From an uncultured Spirochaetaceae bacterium (lineage in GTDB: Bacteria > Spirochaetota > Spirochaetia > Sphaerochaetales > Sphaerochaetaceae), in the NCBI GenBank assembly GCA_944389145.1, contig CALXLH010000005.1:1-41332 (forward strand): 41,332 nucleotides of DNA, read 5' to 3'. This document shows positions 16,700 through 37,317 of the stretch, one piece after another. The translations under genes and the position numbers were made by a program. Every line of letters begins with the position of its first letter. Positions within the stretch are counted from its first letter, which is position 1. The notes beneath the pieces were generated by a model. That model was not told the DNA's origin, made no database searches, and saw only the letters and a list, made by a program, of their open reading frames with translations.

Positions 16700-19267
16700 C
16701 TACTCCCCAAGCCTCTTCTTGATCTCTGAAAGGAACATGAGCGCCTCCAGAGGGGTTGATGAGTCGGTGTCGAATGCCGCTATGTCGCGCAGTATCTCGC
16801 TGCCCTCGCTTCCTTCCTTATCCGAATAATCGATGAAGAGGTCTCCCTGAGAGGAATCGAAGGCATAATCCGCGAAATGACGGCGCTGGAATGAGGATGC
16901 CTCCTTGATCACATCCCTAGGGATCCCCGCAAGCTTCGCGACATGTATGCCATAGCTCGATGCGGAGACGCCTGGCTCGGCCTTACGAAGGAACGTTATT
17001 GTATTCCTCTCCTCCCGCACGGCCATATGCAGCAGCTGTATTCCGGATGTATCGAGAAGCGTAAGCTCATGGTAATGCGTCGCAAAGAGCGTTATGCAGC
17101 CAAGCGATCGGAGGTATCCCATCACGGCGTATGCGATCGACATCCCGTCCTCGGTAGATGTACCGCGTCCGATCTCGTCCATTATCACAAGGGAGTGGCG
17201 TGTCGCCGAACGGAGGATGGCCGCCGTCTCGGACATCTCCACGAGGAACGTGGACTCACCCCTGGCAAGGTTATCGCTGGCGCCTACGCGGCAGAAGATC
17301 CTGTCCGTGATAGGGATGACGGCCCTTGCAGCAGGGACATACGACCCAATATGCGAAAGCAGGGTTATAAGGGCGATCTGCCTCAGATAGGTCGACTTAC
17401 CGGCCATGTTAGGTCCCGTTATGAGCGAGAAGCGGGAAGGAACGGAGGAGAATGAGTTGGCGACATAGGCCCCGGCCTCCGTATAGGCCTCAACAACCGG
17501 ATGGCGGCCGTTCTCTATCTCTATGTCCCCTTCCTCTATCATCTCAGGCCGCACCCATCCGCACTCTGTGGCAAGGGTGGCAAGCGATGAGTACATATCA
17601 AGCCGGGATATTATCCTTCCCATGCTCTCGATCGGGATATAAAGGGAGGCTGCACGCGAAAGGAAGAGGCCGAATATCTCCTTCTCACGCCTTGCGGCAT
17701 CATCAGCGGCACTCGCTATCCTCTCCTTAAGCTCCTCCAGCTCTGGCGTGACGAAGCGCTCGCCGCCGACAAGCGTCTGACGCCTGACGAAGTACTCAGG
17801 AACCTTATCAAGCTGCCCCTTCGATACCTCTATATATGCACCGAGGATCCGGTTCTCCCCGACCTTCATGTTCTGTATCCCCGTCTCCGCCTTGATACGC
17901 TCAAGATACTGATCCAGAAGCGCAGCCCCGCCTTCCTCAAGCGCCCTGTGCCTGTCAAGCTCCTCATCAAATCCGGCAAGGATCACCGTACCGGCAGCCG
18001 CAGCATTGGTACAGTCACGGCTTATCGCGCTCATGATATCCTCCGAAAGCGAAAGAAGCGCATCGAATGAGGAGGAGAAATCATCAGCAAGGGAGAGATA
18101 TTCATTCCTCTCCGAGACAAGTGAGAAGAACGATGCGATGGTATCAGCGATCGCGATGAGATTACGCGGGGTCAGCCTCGACATCGAGGCCTTGGCAGAG
18201 AGCCTTTCAAGATCCGAGGCTGATGAAAGGACGCCGCGCACCCTTTCAAGCTCGTGCCTGTCAGAGACGAATAATGATACCCAGTCAAGCCTATCCCCTA
18301 TCCTGGCGATATCCACGAGCGGATGGAGTATGGAATAGCGCAGGAGCCGCGCACCAGAGCCGGTGAGAGTCCTGTTGACCGTATTGAAGAGCGAGCCTTC
18401 CTTCCGTCCTCCCGCCATAGTCTCGACAAGCTCGAGATTGCGGACGGCGGCAGCATTCATCAGTACCTCGCCCTCATCGGTTATACGCTCCACGACCCTC
18501 AGCTGCGGCAGCTCTGCCTTAGTATTATCCGCGACGTACCTCAAGAGCGGTCCCATTACGGAGAGGACCGGATCATCCTCCTCTACTCCGGCATCCCTCA
18601 GCACTGAAAGCGGAAACTGCTTGATGCTCTCCTTAAGGCCTGAGCGGATCGTGAACTCCCATTTAGGAAGCTTCGTGACCATCGCGCCCGAGCCATCGGC
18701 GGTACGCCTGAATCCCTTTTCCGAGAAATAGAGATCATCGGACACGAGCATCTCCTTCGGAGAGATGGAGGACAAGGCTGATTCAAGCGAGGAGAAATCA
18801 CGCTCCAGAGGCAGCGTGCGGACATAGAACTCCCCAGTAGAGATATCGGTCCATGATATATATACGCCCTTGCGATCCATCGAGGCGGCAAGGACATAGG
18901 ACGACGAAAGCGAGTCAAGATACTCATCATCGACGACGGTTGCGGGGGTGTAGATCTCCGTCACGCTCCGCCTTGCAAGCTCGTTGGACTTCTCAGGAAG
19001 CGAGAGCTGCTCACAGATAGCGACCTTCTTCCCTGCATCCAGGAGCCGCTTGAGATAGCTTCTCGCAGCATGGTATGGAATGCCGCACATCGGTGCGGAA
19101 CCCCGATGGGTGAGCGTGAGGTTCAGCAGCTTCGAGACCTCGACCGCGTCCTCGTTGAACATCTCATAGAAGTCCCCGAGGCGGAAGAACAGCACCATAT
19201 CCTGATGCTTCTCCTTGACCTCGAGGTATTGACGCATCATAGGCGTCAGGCCCTGTTCCTTCTCCAT
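16700..19267 (-). CDS. mutS: DNA mismatch repair protein MutS
   Basis: An 855-residue MutS1-type protein that recognises mismatches and small loops and recruits MutL. The mismatch-contacting FxE motif is in RLGDFYEMF (F33, E35). Connector, lever and clamp domains occupy about 120-560. The ATPase has Walker A GPNMAGKST (618-626), Walker B VIMDEIGRGTSTEDG (D697, E698) and the signature ESTFLVEMSETA (671-682). The C-terminus (about 790-855) contains the helix-turn-helix dimerisation region. The ATG follows the bamA stop after one base, so the two are co-transcribed. No mutL lies in the window. Confidence 0.98.
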   Translation of the reverse strand: MEKEQGLTPMMRQYLEVKEKHQDMVLFFRLGDFYEMFNEDAVEVSKLLNLTLTHRGSAPMCGIPYHAARSYLKRLLDAGKKVAICEQLSLPEKSNELARRSVTEIYTPATVVDDEYLDSLSSSYVLAASMDRKGVYISWTDISTGEFYVRTLPLERDFSSLESALSSISPKEMLVSDDLYFSEKGFRRTADGSGAMVTKLPKWEFTIRSGLKESIKQFPLSVLRDAGVEEDDPVLSVMGPLLRYVADNTKAELPQLRVVERITDEGEVLMNAAAVRNLELVETMAGGRKEGSLFNTVNRTLTGSGARLLRYSILHPLVDIARIGDRLDWVSLFVSDRHELERVRGVLSSASDLERLSAKASMSRLTPRNLIAIADTIASFFSLVSERNEYLSLADDFSSSFDALLSLSEDIMSAISRDCTNAAAAGTVILAGFDEELDRHRALEEGGAALLDQYLERIKAETGIQNMKVGENRILGAYIEVSKGQLDKVPEYFVRRQTLVGGERFVTPELEELKERIASAADDAARREKEIFGLFLSRAASLYIPIESMGRIISRLDMYSSLATLATECGWVRPEMIEEGDIEIENGRHPVVEAYTEAGAYVANSFSSVPSRFSLITGPNMAGKSTYLRQIALITLLSHIGSYVPAARAVIPITDRIFCRVGASDNLARGESTFLVEMSETAAILRSATRHSLVIMDEIGRGTSTEDGMSIAYAVMGYLRSLGCITLFATHYHELTLLDTSGIQLLHMAVREERNTITFLRKAEPGVSASSYGIHVAKLAGIPRDVIKEASSFQRRHFADYAFDSSQGDLFIDYSDKEGSEGSEILRDIAAFDTDSSTPLEALMFLSEIKKRLGE

Positions 19268-33539: not shown

Positions 33540-33568
33540 ATACTAGGTAATAGCGGCAAAATAGTCAA
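33540..33568 (-). promoter_or_regulatory. Promoter of the DUF4912-GH57 operon
   Basis: TTGACT (33563-33568, reverse strand), a 17-base spacer and TAGTAT (33540-33545). It lies about 30 bases before the DUF4912 ATG, leaving a short leader with AAGGGG. The spacing is ideal and both boxes are close to consensus. Confidence 0.65.
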
Positions 33569-33892
33569 TAAATCGCGATTGCACGCAAGGAAATGCATCT
33601 TCTTCCAACGCTCATGAGCCATCTGATGGATTCACCAGCAGCAATGGAACCTCCGCAGAGGCACCTTCGGCCGTATATCTATACGGGCAGACATCCTTCC
33701 AGTCATCATCGATTACCTTGTTCATCTCATCCATGGCGATAGTGATGCCTTCTGCCGCCTCGCCTGACCACACTACGGATGTGCCATCGACCTTGATATT
33801 CGGAGCATCATCCTTAGTGCCGAATCCCCTTTCACCTGAATAATAATCCTCTGCTGTAAGGAATTTGATAAGCGTTAGCTGTGATGAACTTC

Positions 33893-33941
33893 AGGAAGGC
33901 GGAGAAACTTCCTACCGGCGTTCAATTGTTTCCGCCTTCCT
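33893..33941. repeat. Imperfect palindrome inside the lipoprotein gene
   Basis: AGGAAGGCGG-AG-AAAC (33893-33908) and GTTTCCGCCTTCCT (33928-33941) are inverted copies, 14 paired bases with a two-base bulge, around a 19-base centre. Together with its edges it introduces stop codons into a frame that is otherwise open on both sides. It could be a small mobile palindrome (REP or MITE-like) or a hairpin left by a deletion. I found no second copy in this window. Confidence 0.6.
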
Positions 33942-34816
33942 CTACCCCTACAGCGAGATATCCTCAAGTTGCACACAATTATAGTCTATTCCTGTAGTAT
34001 TTACAGCCATTGCCCATGCCATTAGCCCTTCCGCGGATGAGACATAATAGGTGTTGCCTGCAATGACATAGTCGTCGATGAAAGCCGCAAGAGAGAGGTC
34101 CTTGCTAATCGATGAATCAGAGTCAAATCCAAGCCCAGTACTCGTATCCTTGAATTTTATGTTCGATAGAGGATCCTCTCCTATGGTGATCTCAGGAAAT
34201 GTTATCTTATTTCCATCCTTCACATATAACGTATCCTTCTCTATAGCTATGCCCTTGAATACCTCATATTTATTTAAGTCATCGATAGAAAACGTCACCG
34301 TCCAGGCCTTCGCCCATTTAGCATAAAGCGTGATTGATGATGTGACGGGGGCATCAAAGTCATATAGCACGGATGTATTCTCATCACTGTACCATCCATC
34401 GAAAGAATAGCCTTCTTTCTCTGGTTCTTCTGGTTTCTCAGCCATGTTGCCGCTGACCACGCTCTGGGAAGCTACCTCCGTTCCTCCATTCGACTGGAAC
34501 GAGACTGTGTATCTCTTCGTATGACTGATGGCATATCGGTTCCACTTAGCATAGAGCGTCATGCTGCCTGTTACAGGAAGGGACATATCATATTCGGTCG
34601 TGAGTGCCTCATCTGTGTACCAGCCTGCGAAGGTGTAGCGGTAGCTGTATGTGCTCTCCTTCTCCGGCTCCGGTATATCCTCAAGCGTGTTCCCATCGGG
34701 GACCGTTATCGTCGTCTCATATCCTTCGGGGAACTGGCCACCGTTAAGGCTGAACGAAACCGTGTGATTATCAGGTCCTGAATTACAGGACAGGAGCATC
34801 ATCAGGAGGAATAGTA

Positions 34817-34824
34817 CCCCCCCC
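34817..34824 (-). repeat. Poly-G (8) tract in a signal-peptide coding region
   Basis: Eight consecutive Cs on the plus strand (Gs in the gene) fall in codons 13-15 of the lipoprotein gene. With seven or ten Gs the signal peptide joins the long downstream frame; with eight it stops early. Such tracts change length by slipped-strand mispairing and switch genes on and off in other bacteria, including treponemes. Confidence 0.65.
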
Positions 34825-34879
34825 TCGTATCATCGTGCCAATCGGAGCGCTTCTCTTCATCTCTCCTCCCTTTCCCTCT

Positions 34880-34907
34880 ATGATACCAGAACAGGAAAGG
34901 AAATCAA
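34880..34907 (-). promoter_or_regulatory. Promoter of the InlB-repeat lipoprotein gene
   Basis: TTGATT (34902-34907, reverse strand), a 16-base spacer and TATCAT (34880-34885) preceded by TGG, making an extended -10. It is 20 bases before the ATG at 34860, with a GGGAGGAG Shine-Dalgarno between. An intact promoter and ribosome-binding site suggest the locus is still expressed. Confidence 0.55.
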
Positions 34908-34974
34908 GAAAGCCATAGCATGCGGTTTCCGCAGGACACTCGTCCAGATATCATTATTCACCCTTGCATCGTAA

Positions 34975-34980
34975 TATGAT
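34975..34980 (+). promoter_or_regulatory. Putative -10 element (TATGAT) of the GH57/DUF3536 gene
   Basis: TATGAT ends 12 bases before the ATG at 34993, so the 5' leader would be about five bases. No Shine-Dalgarno is visible before the ATG and no good -35 is seen 16-18 bases upstream. The call is tentative. Confidence 0.35.
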
Positions 34981-34992
34981 AGACTACTCGGC

Positions 34993-37317
34993 ATGGAAAA
35001 GAAGGAAGAAAGGACATCGCTCATACTCCATGGGCATTTCTACCAGCCGCCGAGGGAGAATCCGTTTACCGGGATAATCCCCAAGCATGCATCAGCCGCT
35101 CCTTATATCGACTGGAACGAGAGGATCTGGCATGACTGCTACTCGGCAAACGCGCACTCACGCTATCTCTCTCCGGATGGACGCATCATATCGATAACCA
35201 ACAACTTCTCATATATCTCATACAACTTCGGCCCCACCCTCCTGTCATGGATGGAGGAAAAGCATCCGGAAACCATAGAGATGCTCATCGAGGCTGACAG
35301 GGAGAGCATAGCGCGGCTCGGACATGGCAACGCGATGGCCCAGAGCTTCAACCATACGATCCTCCCGCTCGATAAGCTTCCTGACGCGAGGCTGCAGATC
35401 GAATGGGGAGCGATGGACTTCGAAAGAAGGTTCGGGCGCAAGGCCGAGGGAATGTGGCTTCCGGAGGCCGGAATCAACAAGGATGTGATCCAGCTCCTGT
35501 CGGATGAGGGCATAAGATTCGTAGTGCTCTCTCCCTGGCAGTGCAAGGCAGTCGAAGACGATGAGGGCCGGATGACGCTCCTGCAGGGAAAGCCGGCCCC
35601 ATACTGGCAGCCCTATATCCTCACAGGCTCCAACGGTGGGGAGATCGCGGCATTCTTCTATCATCCGGGCCTCGCGGAGTCTATATCATTCGGCCATATG
35701 CTCCGCTCTGCCGATAACCTCTACTCGACGCTCAAGTCGATAAGGGACACGGAGAAGCGAAGCCTGATCCACACGGCAACCGACGGAGAGATCTATGGCC
35801 ACCATGAGCCATATGGCGACATGGCGCTCGCGGCACTCATACGCAAGGTTGCGGAGAGGGACGACTTCAGGCTTGACAACTACGGCTCATATCTTGCATC
35901 TCACCCTGCCACGCTCCATGCGGAGCTTCACGCGGGTGAGGCCGGCAAGGGAACCTCCTGGTCCTGCTCGCACGGGGTATCCAGATGGTATAAGGACTGC
36001 GGATGTACCACGGGCGGCGAGGCAGGCTGGAATCAGGCATGGAGGACTCCGCTGCGCATCGGGCTGCAGCACCTCGGCGAGAAGCTCGACCTGATCTTCC
36101 AGGAGGAAGTCGGAAAGATATTCGGCAAGGATCTCGATCCATACGAGCTGCTGAGGAAGGCAGGACAGGAGTTCTGCGGAAAGCTGTCGATGAGGGAGTT
36201 CATCGAGTCATTGCACAAGGCAAGGCACTTCGCCTCGACCTATGACGTGGAGCTTGCGCACCTCCTTTCCGGCATGAAGAACAAGCACTTCTCCTTCACC
36301 AGCTGCGGCTTCTTCTTCTCAGAGCTTTCCGGAATAGAGCCACGGCAGAACATCAAGTACGCGCTATATGCCATACGCATGTTCCAGCCCTACTATCAGG
36401 GAGACCTGCTTTACCCGTTCCTATCAGATCTGAGGAAGGCAAAAAGCAACATAAAGACGATGGGAGATGGCATGAACATCGCACAGGAGGAGATGAAGGG
36501 ACTCTCAGGAGAGGCTGAGGCCGTGCTTTACTTCTATACCAACCGGCTCCTGGCGACCGAGGAGGACTATGAGGACACCTACGGCCGCTTCGTGCTCTCC
36601 AGGATAGGGAATGAGGACTCAGAGAACTTCTTTGCCGATATCATCGATACCGTGAACCTGGAGCTGTTCCGCTTCCGCATCCTCTCCTCCTCCTCGATAG
36701 ACTACGGCATCAACCTCTATCTCTCTGAGAGCGATGGCAACGACAATCCGCTCAGCCGCACGAGGATAACCAATCAGGACATACCTGACAGGATGCTCGT
36801 GGATATCTACGGATGGATAGACAGGTCGATGAACCGCATGACGTTCACAGAGCTTTCATCGCTGGCACGCGACATGAGGCACTTCTCCATGCTGGTGAAG
36901 AACTCCAAATACGTGCCGCTTGAGACAAACGTGATGGAGAACCTGGGACTGACGCTGAAGATCATCAAGTCGCTCTTCACCGTATACGTCGACGTAACGC
37001 CCCAGGAGCGCAAGGAGATACTTGGCAACATGATAGACTTCGTGCGCAAATGCGGCCGCGATACGGATATCCAGTCGATAAACGGCATCCTCTCCGACCA
37101 TGCCGCGTACCTTGCCTCGGAAGTGGCAAGGGAAGGACTGACGAAGGCGAATGCCGAATCTATCATCGAGCTTCTCACGCTCTCGCGTTCCCACGGCTTC
37201 GAGCCGGAGACGGCGGCGCTGCAGAATGCGGTCTATCCGTACTACAGCGGAGCAATGGAGGCCACGATAGCGGAAAGCCTCGCGCGCGATGCGTTCCTAT
37301 CACTGAACTTCCAGTAA
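34993..37317 (+). CDS. GH57 glycoside hydrolase with DUF3536 domain
   Basis: A 774-residue protein. The N-terminal ~300 residues are a GH57 catalytic domain: LILHGHFYQPPRENP (motif 1, 10-24), nucleophile in GMWLPEAGI (E158) and acid/base in HTATDGEIYGHHEPYGD (D264). The C-terminal part, from about 400, is the helical DUF3536 region, with FFFSELSGIEPRQNIKYALYAI near 460-480. GH57 enzymes act on alpha-glucans (amylase, pullulanase, 4-alpha-glucanotransferase, branching). This architecture is uncharacterised as far as I know, but lies near the second GH57 and DUF4912 genes, suggesting a glycogen function. The cytoplasm is likely, as no signal peptide is present. The final 18 bases overlap recN tail to tail. 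Confidence 0.86.
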   Translation: MEKKEERTSLILHGHFYQPPRENPFTGIIPKHASAAPYIDWNERIWHDCYSANAHSRYLSPDGRIISITNNFSYISYNFGPTLLSWMEEKHPETIEMLIEADRESIARLGHGNAMAQSFNHTILPLDKLPDARLQIEWGAMDFERRFGRKAEGMWLPEAGINKDVIQLLSDEGIRFVVLSPWQCKAVEDDEGRMTLLQGKPAPYWQPYILTGSNGGEIAAFFYHPGLAESISFGHMLRSADNLYSTLKSIRDTEKRSLIHTATDGEIYGHHEPYGDMALAALIRKVAERDDFRLDNYGSYLASHPATLHAELHAGEAGKGTSWSCSHGVSRWYKDCGCTTGGEAGWNQAWRTPLRIGLQHLGEKLDLIFQEEVGKIFGKDLDPYELLRKAGQEFCGKLSMREFIESLHKARHFASTYDVELAHLLSGMKNKHFSFTSCGFFFSELSGIEPRQNIKYALYAIRMFQPYYQGDLLYPFLSDLRKAKSNIKTMGDGMNIAQEEMKGLSGEAEAVLYFYTNRLLATEEDYEDTYGRFVLSRIGNEDSENFFADIIDTVNLELFRFRILSSSSIDYGINLYLSESDGNDNPLSRTRITNQDIPDRMLVDIYGWIDRSMNRMTFTELSSLARDMRHFSMLVKNSKYVPLETNVMENLGLTLKIIKSLFTVYVDVTPQERKEILGNMIDFVRKCGRDTDIQSINGILSDHAAYLASEVAREGLTKANAESIIELLTLSRSHGFEPETAALQNAVYPYYSGAMEATIAESLARDAFLSLNFQ

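Follow-up and report, generated by a model that had tools for sequence, protein, structure and literature searches.

A poly-G tract in the signal-peptide region of a gut spirochaete lipoprotein gene as a probable phase-variation switch, and its counterparts across the genus

Introduction

In an uncultured Spirochaetaceae bacterium, a stretch of 41,332 nt (hereafter the window, contig C5 of a 2.13 Mb genome in 42 contigs) holds a lipoprotein gene on its minus strand whose signal-peptide coding region includes a run of eight Gs, with the repeat-containing body of the protein out of frame with the start codon. The question raised by such a structure is whether the gene has been recorded in the OFF state of a length-variable switch, or whether it is simply dead. 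An earlier note on this DNA favoured the former and described the locus as a contingency locus.

The best protein matches of the window genome include Candidatus Ornithospirochaeta and Spirochaetaceae/Spirochaetales MAGs. A literature search for phase variation together with Sphaerochaeta, which was not exhaustive, found no paper joining both, and the few papers naming Ornithospirochaeta are, by title, taxonomic or gut surveys. Poly-G switching is known as a mechanism, while its system in these gut spirochaetes appears to be undescribed.

Results

The tract and the reading frames

The G8 run, the ATG, the Shine-Dalgarno sequence and the promoter named in the earlier note are all confirmed as intact (Table 1), the promoter as a consensus match: TTGATT-16-TATCAT is the sole promoter-like site in 33550-35010, and shuffles of this region average 2.4 such sites. 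Reading from the ATG, MKRSAPIGTMIR precedes the tract, and with eight Gs, as assembled, the frame continues as GGGTIPPDDAPVL and stops. According to frame computation, nine Gs lead to a stop after 19 codons, while seven or ten Gs give 303 or 304 codons with the product MKRSAPIGTMIRGGVLFLLMMLLSC...; in the latter frame the sequence after the tract reads GGVLFLLMMLLSC and meets no stop until 33948. The claim that one G fewer would join the start to the repeat body, behind a signal peptide with LLSC, is borne out. By sequence, expression on or off depends on tract length, the alternatives being 25, 19 or 303/304 codons. The body contains two PF09479 List-Bact (InlB-type) repeats (E=1.9e-35), which follow the signal peptide with its lipobox, LLSC having been recognised by reading. 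A lipobox combined with PF09479 places the gene in a class typical of contingency loci, that of surface proteins.

Table 1. Coordinates of the features at the window locus
Feature	Positions	Strand	Remark
Lineage-specific insert between the DUF4912 and GH57/DUF3536 genes	33600..34970		approximate ends
Remnant of the lipoprotein family's C-terminal end, out of frame	33612..33890	-	
Imperfect hairpin with two 18-nt arms, just past the premature body end	33893..33941		single copy in genome
Lipoprotein body	33948..34816	-	open to TAG at 33950-33948
Better of two List-Bact repeats (PF09479)	34317..34511	-	residues 98-162 of the ORF from 34802
Frame read with G8	34783..34860	-	25 codons, then TAA at 34785-34783
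Lipobox Cys codon (LLSC) in body frame	34785..34787	-	
G8 homopolymer tract in signal-peptide coding region	34817..34824	-	C8 on the + strand
Start codon (ATG) of the lipoprotein frame	34858..34860	-	
Shine-Dalgarno-like GGGAGGAGAG	34861..34870	-	direct reading; GGAGG at 34869-34865
Sigma-70-like promoter TTGATT-16-TATCAT, TG before -10	34880..34907	-	consensus match only

Homologues with tracts at the same position

The body was used as a query against 48 genomes of the genus, and relatives were found in 26 of them. Counting the window locus, eight homologous List-Bact lipoprotein loci from six species have G8-G10 tracts placed after the ATG and ahead of the lipobox; their frame states differ, two being ON and six OFF. 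Besides the window locus (G8, OFF), one of them lies in the same genome and six in five other species, all with G9-G10 tracts, two in frame and five out. A paralogue with a similar tract, of the kind whose existence the earlier note had raised, is present on contig C37 of the same genome; its G9 occupies the corresponding place in the signal peptide and is in frame (MNTHKGQHFSRILRGGVAFCLLLLLSSC; the Shine-Dalgarno sequence of this locus is poor). The other ON locus is G002:C51 (G9, MKKRSLFTIIQWGGVLFLLALLTSC), while G048:C22, G049:C34 and G049:C91 (G9 each) as well as G060:C52 and G009:C36 (G10 each) are OFF. The signal peptides of tract-free homologues are ordinary and lack Gly-Gly, and the Gs therefore do not reflect a conserved feature of the protein. 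In the unbiased tract set, L186 and L192 are signal-peptide tracts in frame, and L195 lies just past the lipobox, out of frame; overall, four of 11 signal-peptide tracts are in frame, about one third being expected under free length drift.

At the in-frame C37 paralogue (L015 1-3123, minus strand), a second lipoprotein-type ORF (MRRIAFIFLAATMIISCSND...) lies a few bases past the stop, and the tract switch may there control an operon.

Excess of long G runs in the genome

Exact G runs, counted over the whole genome by pattern searches and in retrieved stretches, amount to 106 G6, eight G7, four G8, five G9 and five G10, with none longer. The step from G6 to G7 (x0.075) predicts about 0.6 G8, 0.05 G9 and less than 0.01 G10, so that 14 runs of eight or more Gs are observed against approximately 0.65 extrapolated from G6 and G7. 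This excess and the flat length distribution from G8 to G10 look as for tracts under selection. The runs of eight or more are found at the 5′ end of a gene, just upstream of it, or in copies of the same cassette cut by a contig end in 13 of 14 cases, the exception being the G8 at C25:23445, which lies within a lipoprotein-like ORF, and the genes concerned are nearly all lipoprotein genes. A lone G8 is only mildly unusual; it is the position, the homologues and the genome-wide excess that make the window tract significant.

Contigs C13, C26 and C27 of G000 (L008, L013 and L014) end 40-75 nt past the tract, within a shared cassette. The assembly breaks at this cassette, and further copies may be missing from it.

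Tracts in promoter spacers and in other genes of the genus

In a census of 93 tracts from the own and relative genomes, 41 have a TTGACA-like hexamer 7-14 nt ahead of the tract, 35 of the hexamers being perfect, and TAnnnT stands directly past the tract in nearly all of these (T in 37/41, A in 36/41, last T in 35/41). The spacing between -35 and -10 at the 41 tracts is 16-24 nt, with a mode of 19, and at least 31 of them are followed by a lipoprotein-type ORF, in most cases 29-42 nt further downstream. Promoter-spacer length would be the commoner switching mode in this genus, a mode that the earlier note had no means of recognising. The motif TTGACA-N7..12-G8-N0..4-TAnnnT was further searched for in 139 genomes of the order, with the reversed motif as a control. 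It occurs in 42 genomes (the control in 0/139), namely in 33/48 of the genus, in 8/16 (G064-G079) and 1/11 (G141) of two sister genera of the family, and in 0/64 of the rest. Since it is present in two other genera, the device either predates the genus or was acquired more than once.

In the own genome, no Pfam match was obtained for several promoter-class lipoproteins. Some promoter-class genes share the upstream region and the signal peptide, with bodies that score at or near shuffle level (in the C13-C14 pair, 97 for the signal peptide and 81 for the body, the shuffled maximum being 81), and these alignments suggest a cassette copied in front of unrelated bodies. Upstream identities come from free-end alignments, in which unrelated pairs give 0.62-0.8 over short stretches, and the C13/C25/C26/C27 group alone is convincing upstream, with an identity of 0.81-1.0 over about 75-145 nt.

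Other tract genes of the genus encode Methylase_S (HsdS), two GT2 and a GT1 glycosyltransferase, a Wzy_C O-antigen ligase, a protein with a weak Wzi match, and PapD-like chaperones, all of them classic contingency classes. The G9-G11 tracts in or before the genes for HsdS, the two GT2, the O-antigen ligase, GT1 and the weakly Wzi-like protein (L197, L208, L209, L145, L152 and L172) belong to other species of the genus.

Damage to the window copy

Homologues that reach a stop within their compared DNA are mostly about 500-760 aa long, several with Glug repeats in the second half, whereas the window body stops at residue 289. A C-terminal remnant begins 58 nt further on in a different frame. The translation of 33890-33612 aligns with the C-termini of the family (YYSGERGFGTKDDAPNIKV... 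AMDEMN... PLLLV; pairwise E=7e-4), and the score of this alignment is reached by 4 of 2000 shuffles. The profile score of the fragment is weak (6.4 bits, the highest among 500 shuffles being 5.3) and a single-sequence search of the genus found no homologue, its family membership being visible only by comparison with the family C-termini. The window gene has lost its middle and keeps its 3′ end out of frame, and a shortened protein would be expected from it even when ON. The hairpin listed in Table 1 was considered as a repeated element that had cut the gene short, and was rejected on account of its single copy in the genome.

In regard to the surroundings, the DUF4912 and GH57/DUF3536 genes are directly adjacent in those genus relatives for which this stretch was compared, and none of the genus relatives examined has a lipoprotein gene at the site. 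The approximately 1.4 kb that include the lipoprotein gene therefore represent a lineage-specific insert.

Discussion

The significant tracts, the homologues with varying frame and the promoter pattern found across the genus make phase variation the best explanation of the window locus. With a probability of roughly 0.75, the G8 is a translational contingency tract, belonging to a set of poly-G tracts spread over the genus, and the assembly records the OFF frame of the lipoprotein gene. The contingency-locus reading of the earlier note gains support from the six loci with differing frame states in five other species, and from the occurrence of G tracts in surface-protein promoters, signal peptides and classic contingency genes of the genus. 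According to this model, slipped-strand mispairing during replication would add Gs to the tract or remove them. With a G count of 1 modulo 3 (7 or 10), the ATG, the signal peptide and the lipobox would be joined to the List-Bact body and a lipoprotein, presumably exposed on the surface, would be made; with 8 or 9 Gs translation would end within 25 codons, and the population would probably become heterogeneous. The ON product could be useful even from the 3′-truncated copy. Most poly-G contingency loci of the genus would instead alter the -35/-10 spacing of lipoprotein promoters.

Several observations speak against switching at this locus. With eight Gs the tract is among the shortest observed, and slippage is usually less frequent in shorter homopolymers. 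The gene is truncated, its 3′ part being displaced into another frame, and it lies in a lineage-specific insert, so that this copy may be decaying. Furthermore, a MutS domain is encoded in the window itself (18923-19246, in an intact 867-aa open frame) and MutS was found in 20/20 genus genomes tested, and its presence should limit slippage of the tracts. By the same observation, the tracts are not a mere result of lost mismatch repair, which was rejected as a cause of their instability.

It is rather unlikely that the window copy is a pseudogene, i.e., that it arrived as a further member of a phase-variable family, has since been deprived of its middle and 3′ end, and retains the G8 as a relic of no further importance. 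Such an origin would agree with the length of the homologues, several of which extend into Glug repeats, with the displaced C-terminal end and with the relatives that have no gene at this site. However, the body is open over 289 codons with two good repeats, its promoter, Shine-Dalgarno sequence and ATG are intact, and a 137-aa relative in the same genome, with one repeat and an in-frame tract, indicates that short forms can be kept. As to the earlier statement that the gene is OFF unless simply dead, the first part agrees with a frame that stops at 25 codons, while the 3′ truncation leaves the second some weight for this copy, which may be a shortened working gene or a dying gene with a relic tract.

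The window tract could also act as a promoter spacer, like the majority of the tracts in this genus, its length setting transcription and not frame. TTGGCA-N11-G8-TACTAT around the tract resembles the genus promoter motif, with a spacer of 19, the commonest value, and a hexamer weakly resembling a -35 box stands equally far from the tract at the own C37 locus and at the G002 locus. Nevertheless, a transcript from there would start past most of the signal peptide, leaving MMLLSC as the only start, too short for export; a full promoter, Shine-Dalgarno sequence and ATG lie upstream of the tract, and G048, G049 and G060 have no -35-like hexamer at that distance, which makes this function quite improbable. 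A homopolymer error of sequencing or assembly, with a true gene of fixed in-frame length, is conceivable in a 42-contig assembly in which several contigs end shortly after such tracts, yet separately assembled genomes of several species show tracts at this very position, some in frame and some not, and even with a fixed in-frame length the gene would still have a G7, itself unusual, in a genus where such tracts abound; we regard such an error as highly improbable. Equally doubtful is a slippage that leaves the DNA unchanged. Polymerases and ribosomes are known to slip on homopolymers in other systems, and a G8 would permit this, with a constant low level of full-length protein as the outcome. 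A programmed shift would need a constant frame relation, and the homologues, with varying tract lengths, have no single one (two loci are in frame and six off by different amounts), which counts against it.

Poly-G tracts in promoters of Treponema pallidum control tpr genes and tp0126, the latter via the distance between -35 and -10, with 17 nt as the optimum, and in vivo the length of the tracts varies from 7 to 11 (PMC7864442). Like TP0126 (an OmpW homologue) and the tpr genes, the loci described here belong to a spirochaete and combine poly-G of 7-11 nt with surface-protein genes, and the TP0126 tract, placed between -35 and -10, has the same layout as most tract loci of the genus studied. 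In contrast to both, the window tract lies within the sequence coding for the signal peptide and affects the frame, and the proteins are lipoproteins of another family, from gut relatives within the Sphaerochaetaceae. Compared with T. pallidum, the genus uses the same device more widely and has signal-peptide tracts in addition. Frame-switched genes of Neisseria carry repeats early in the coding region. A homopolymer in the promoter spacer, as it is discussed in PMC7864442, is found at porA and opc of Neisseria meningitidis. The two tract placements are the same as here, while the organism and the proteins are unrelated. The Vlp proteins of Mycoplasma hyorhinis are a surface lipoprotein family with a homopolymer in each promoter, and so share both traits, but their tracts are poly-A and their genes form a tandem cluster, as opposed to poly-G and dispersed loci. 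Likewise, intragenic G8-G11 tracts switch the frame of surface genes in Campylobacter, where the gene families differ and promoter-spacer tracts are few.

For the genus as a whole, we lean slightly towards a scheme in which a standard cassette (TTGACA, 9-11 nt, G8-G12, TAnnnT, leader, signal peptide), copied ahead of many lipoprotein genes that are otherwise unrelated, together with signal-peptide tracts as a second, translational switch, would produce a random combination of surface lipoproteins in each cell, as a contingency programme that spans the genome. Poly-G phase variation is hard to study in the syphilis agent. If harmless gut spirochaetes apply this device to dozens of their surface lipoproteins, it would be a general strategy of host-associated spirochaetes, and switching could be measured directly in existing metagenome reads. 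The tract loci also supply candidate surface proteins, ready for study, in a group on which hardly any experiments have been done, and they warn that single assemblies of such genomes will label many live genes as broken.

Two other kinds of genes behind tracts were observed. PapD-like pilus chaperones lie directly behind G9-G10 tracts in four species (L010, L169, L188 and L189), based on a Pfam match in L010 and L169 and on similar sequence in L188 and L189. In L012 (G000:C25:20000-31600, tract at C25:28070-28079), a full promoter-tract cassette, TTGACAAAATCCTAC-G10-TAGCCT, stands ahead of a 1450-aa ORF whose sole PHROG match is phrog_9880, a phage family of unknown function, and this may be a prophage gene under a contingency promoter.
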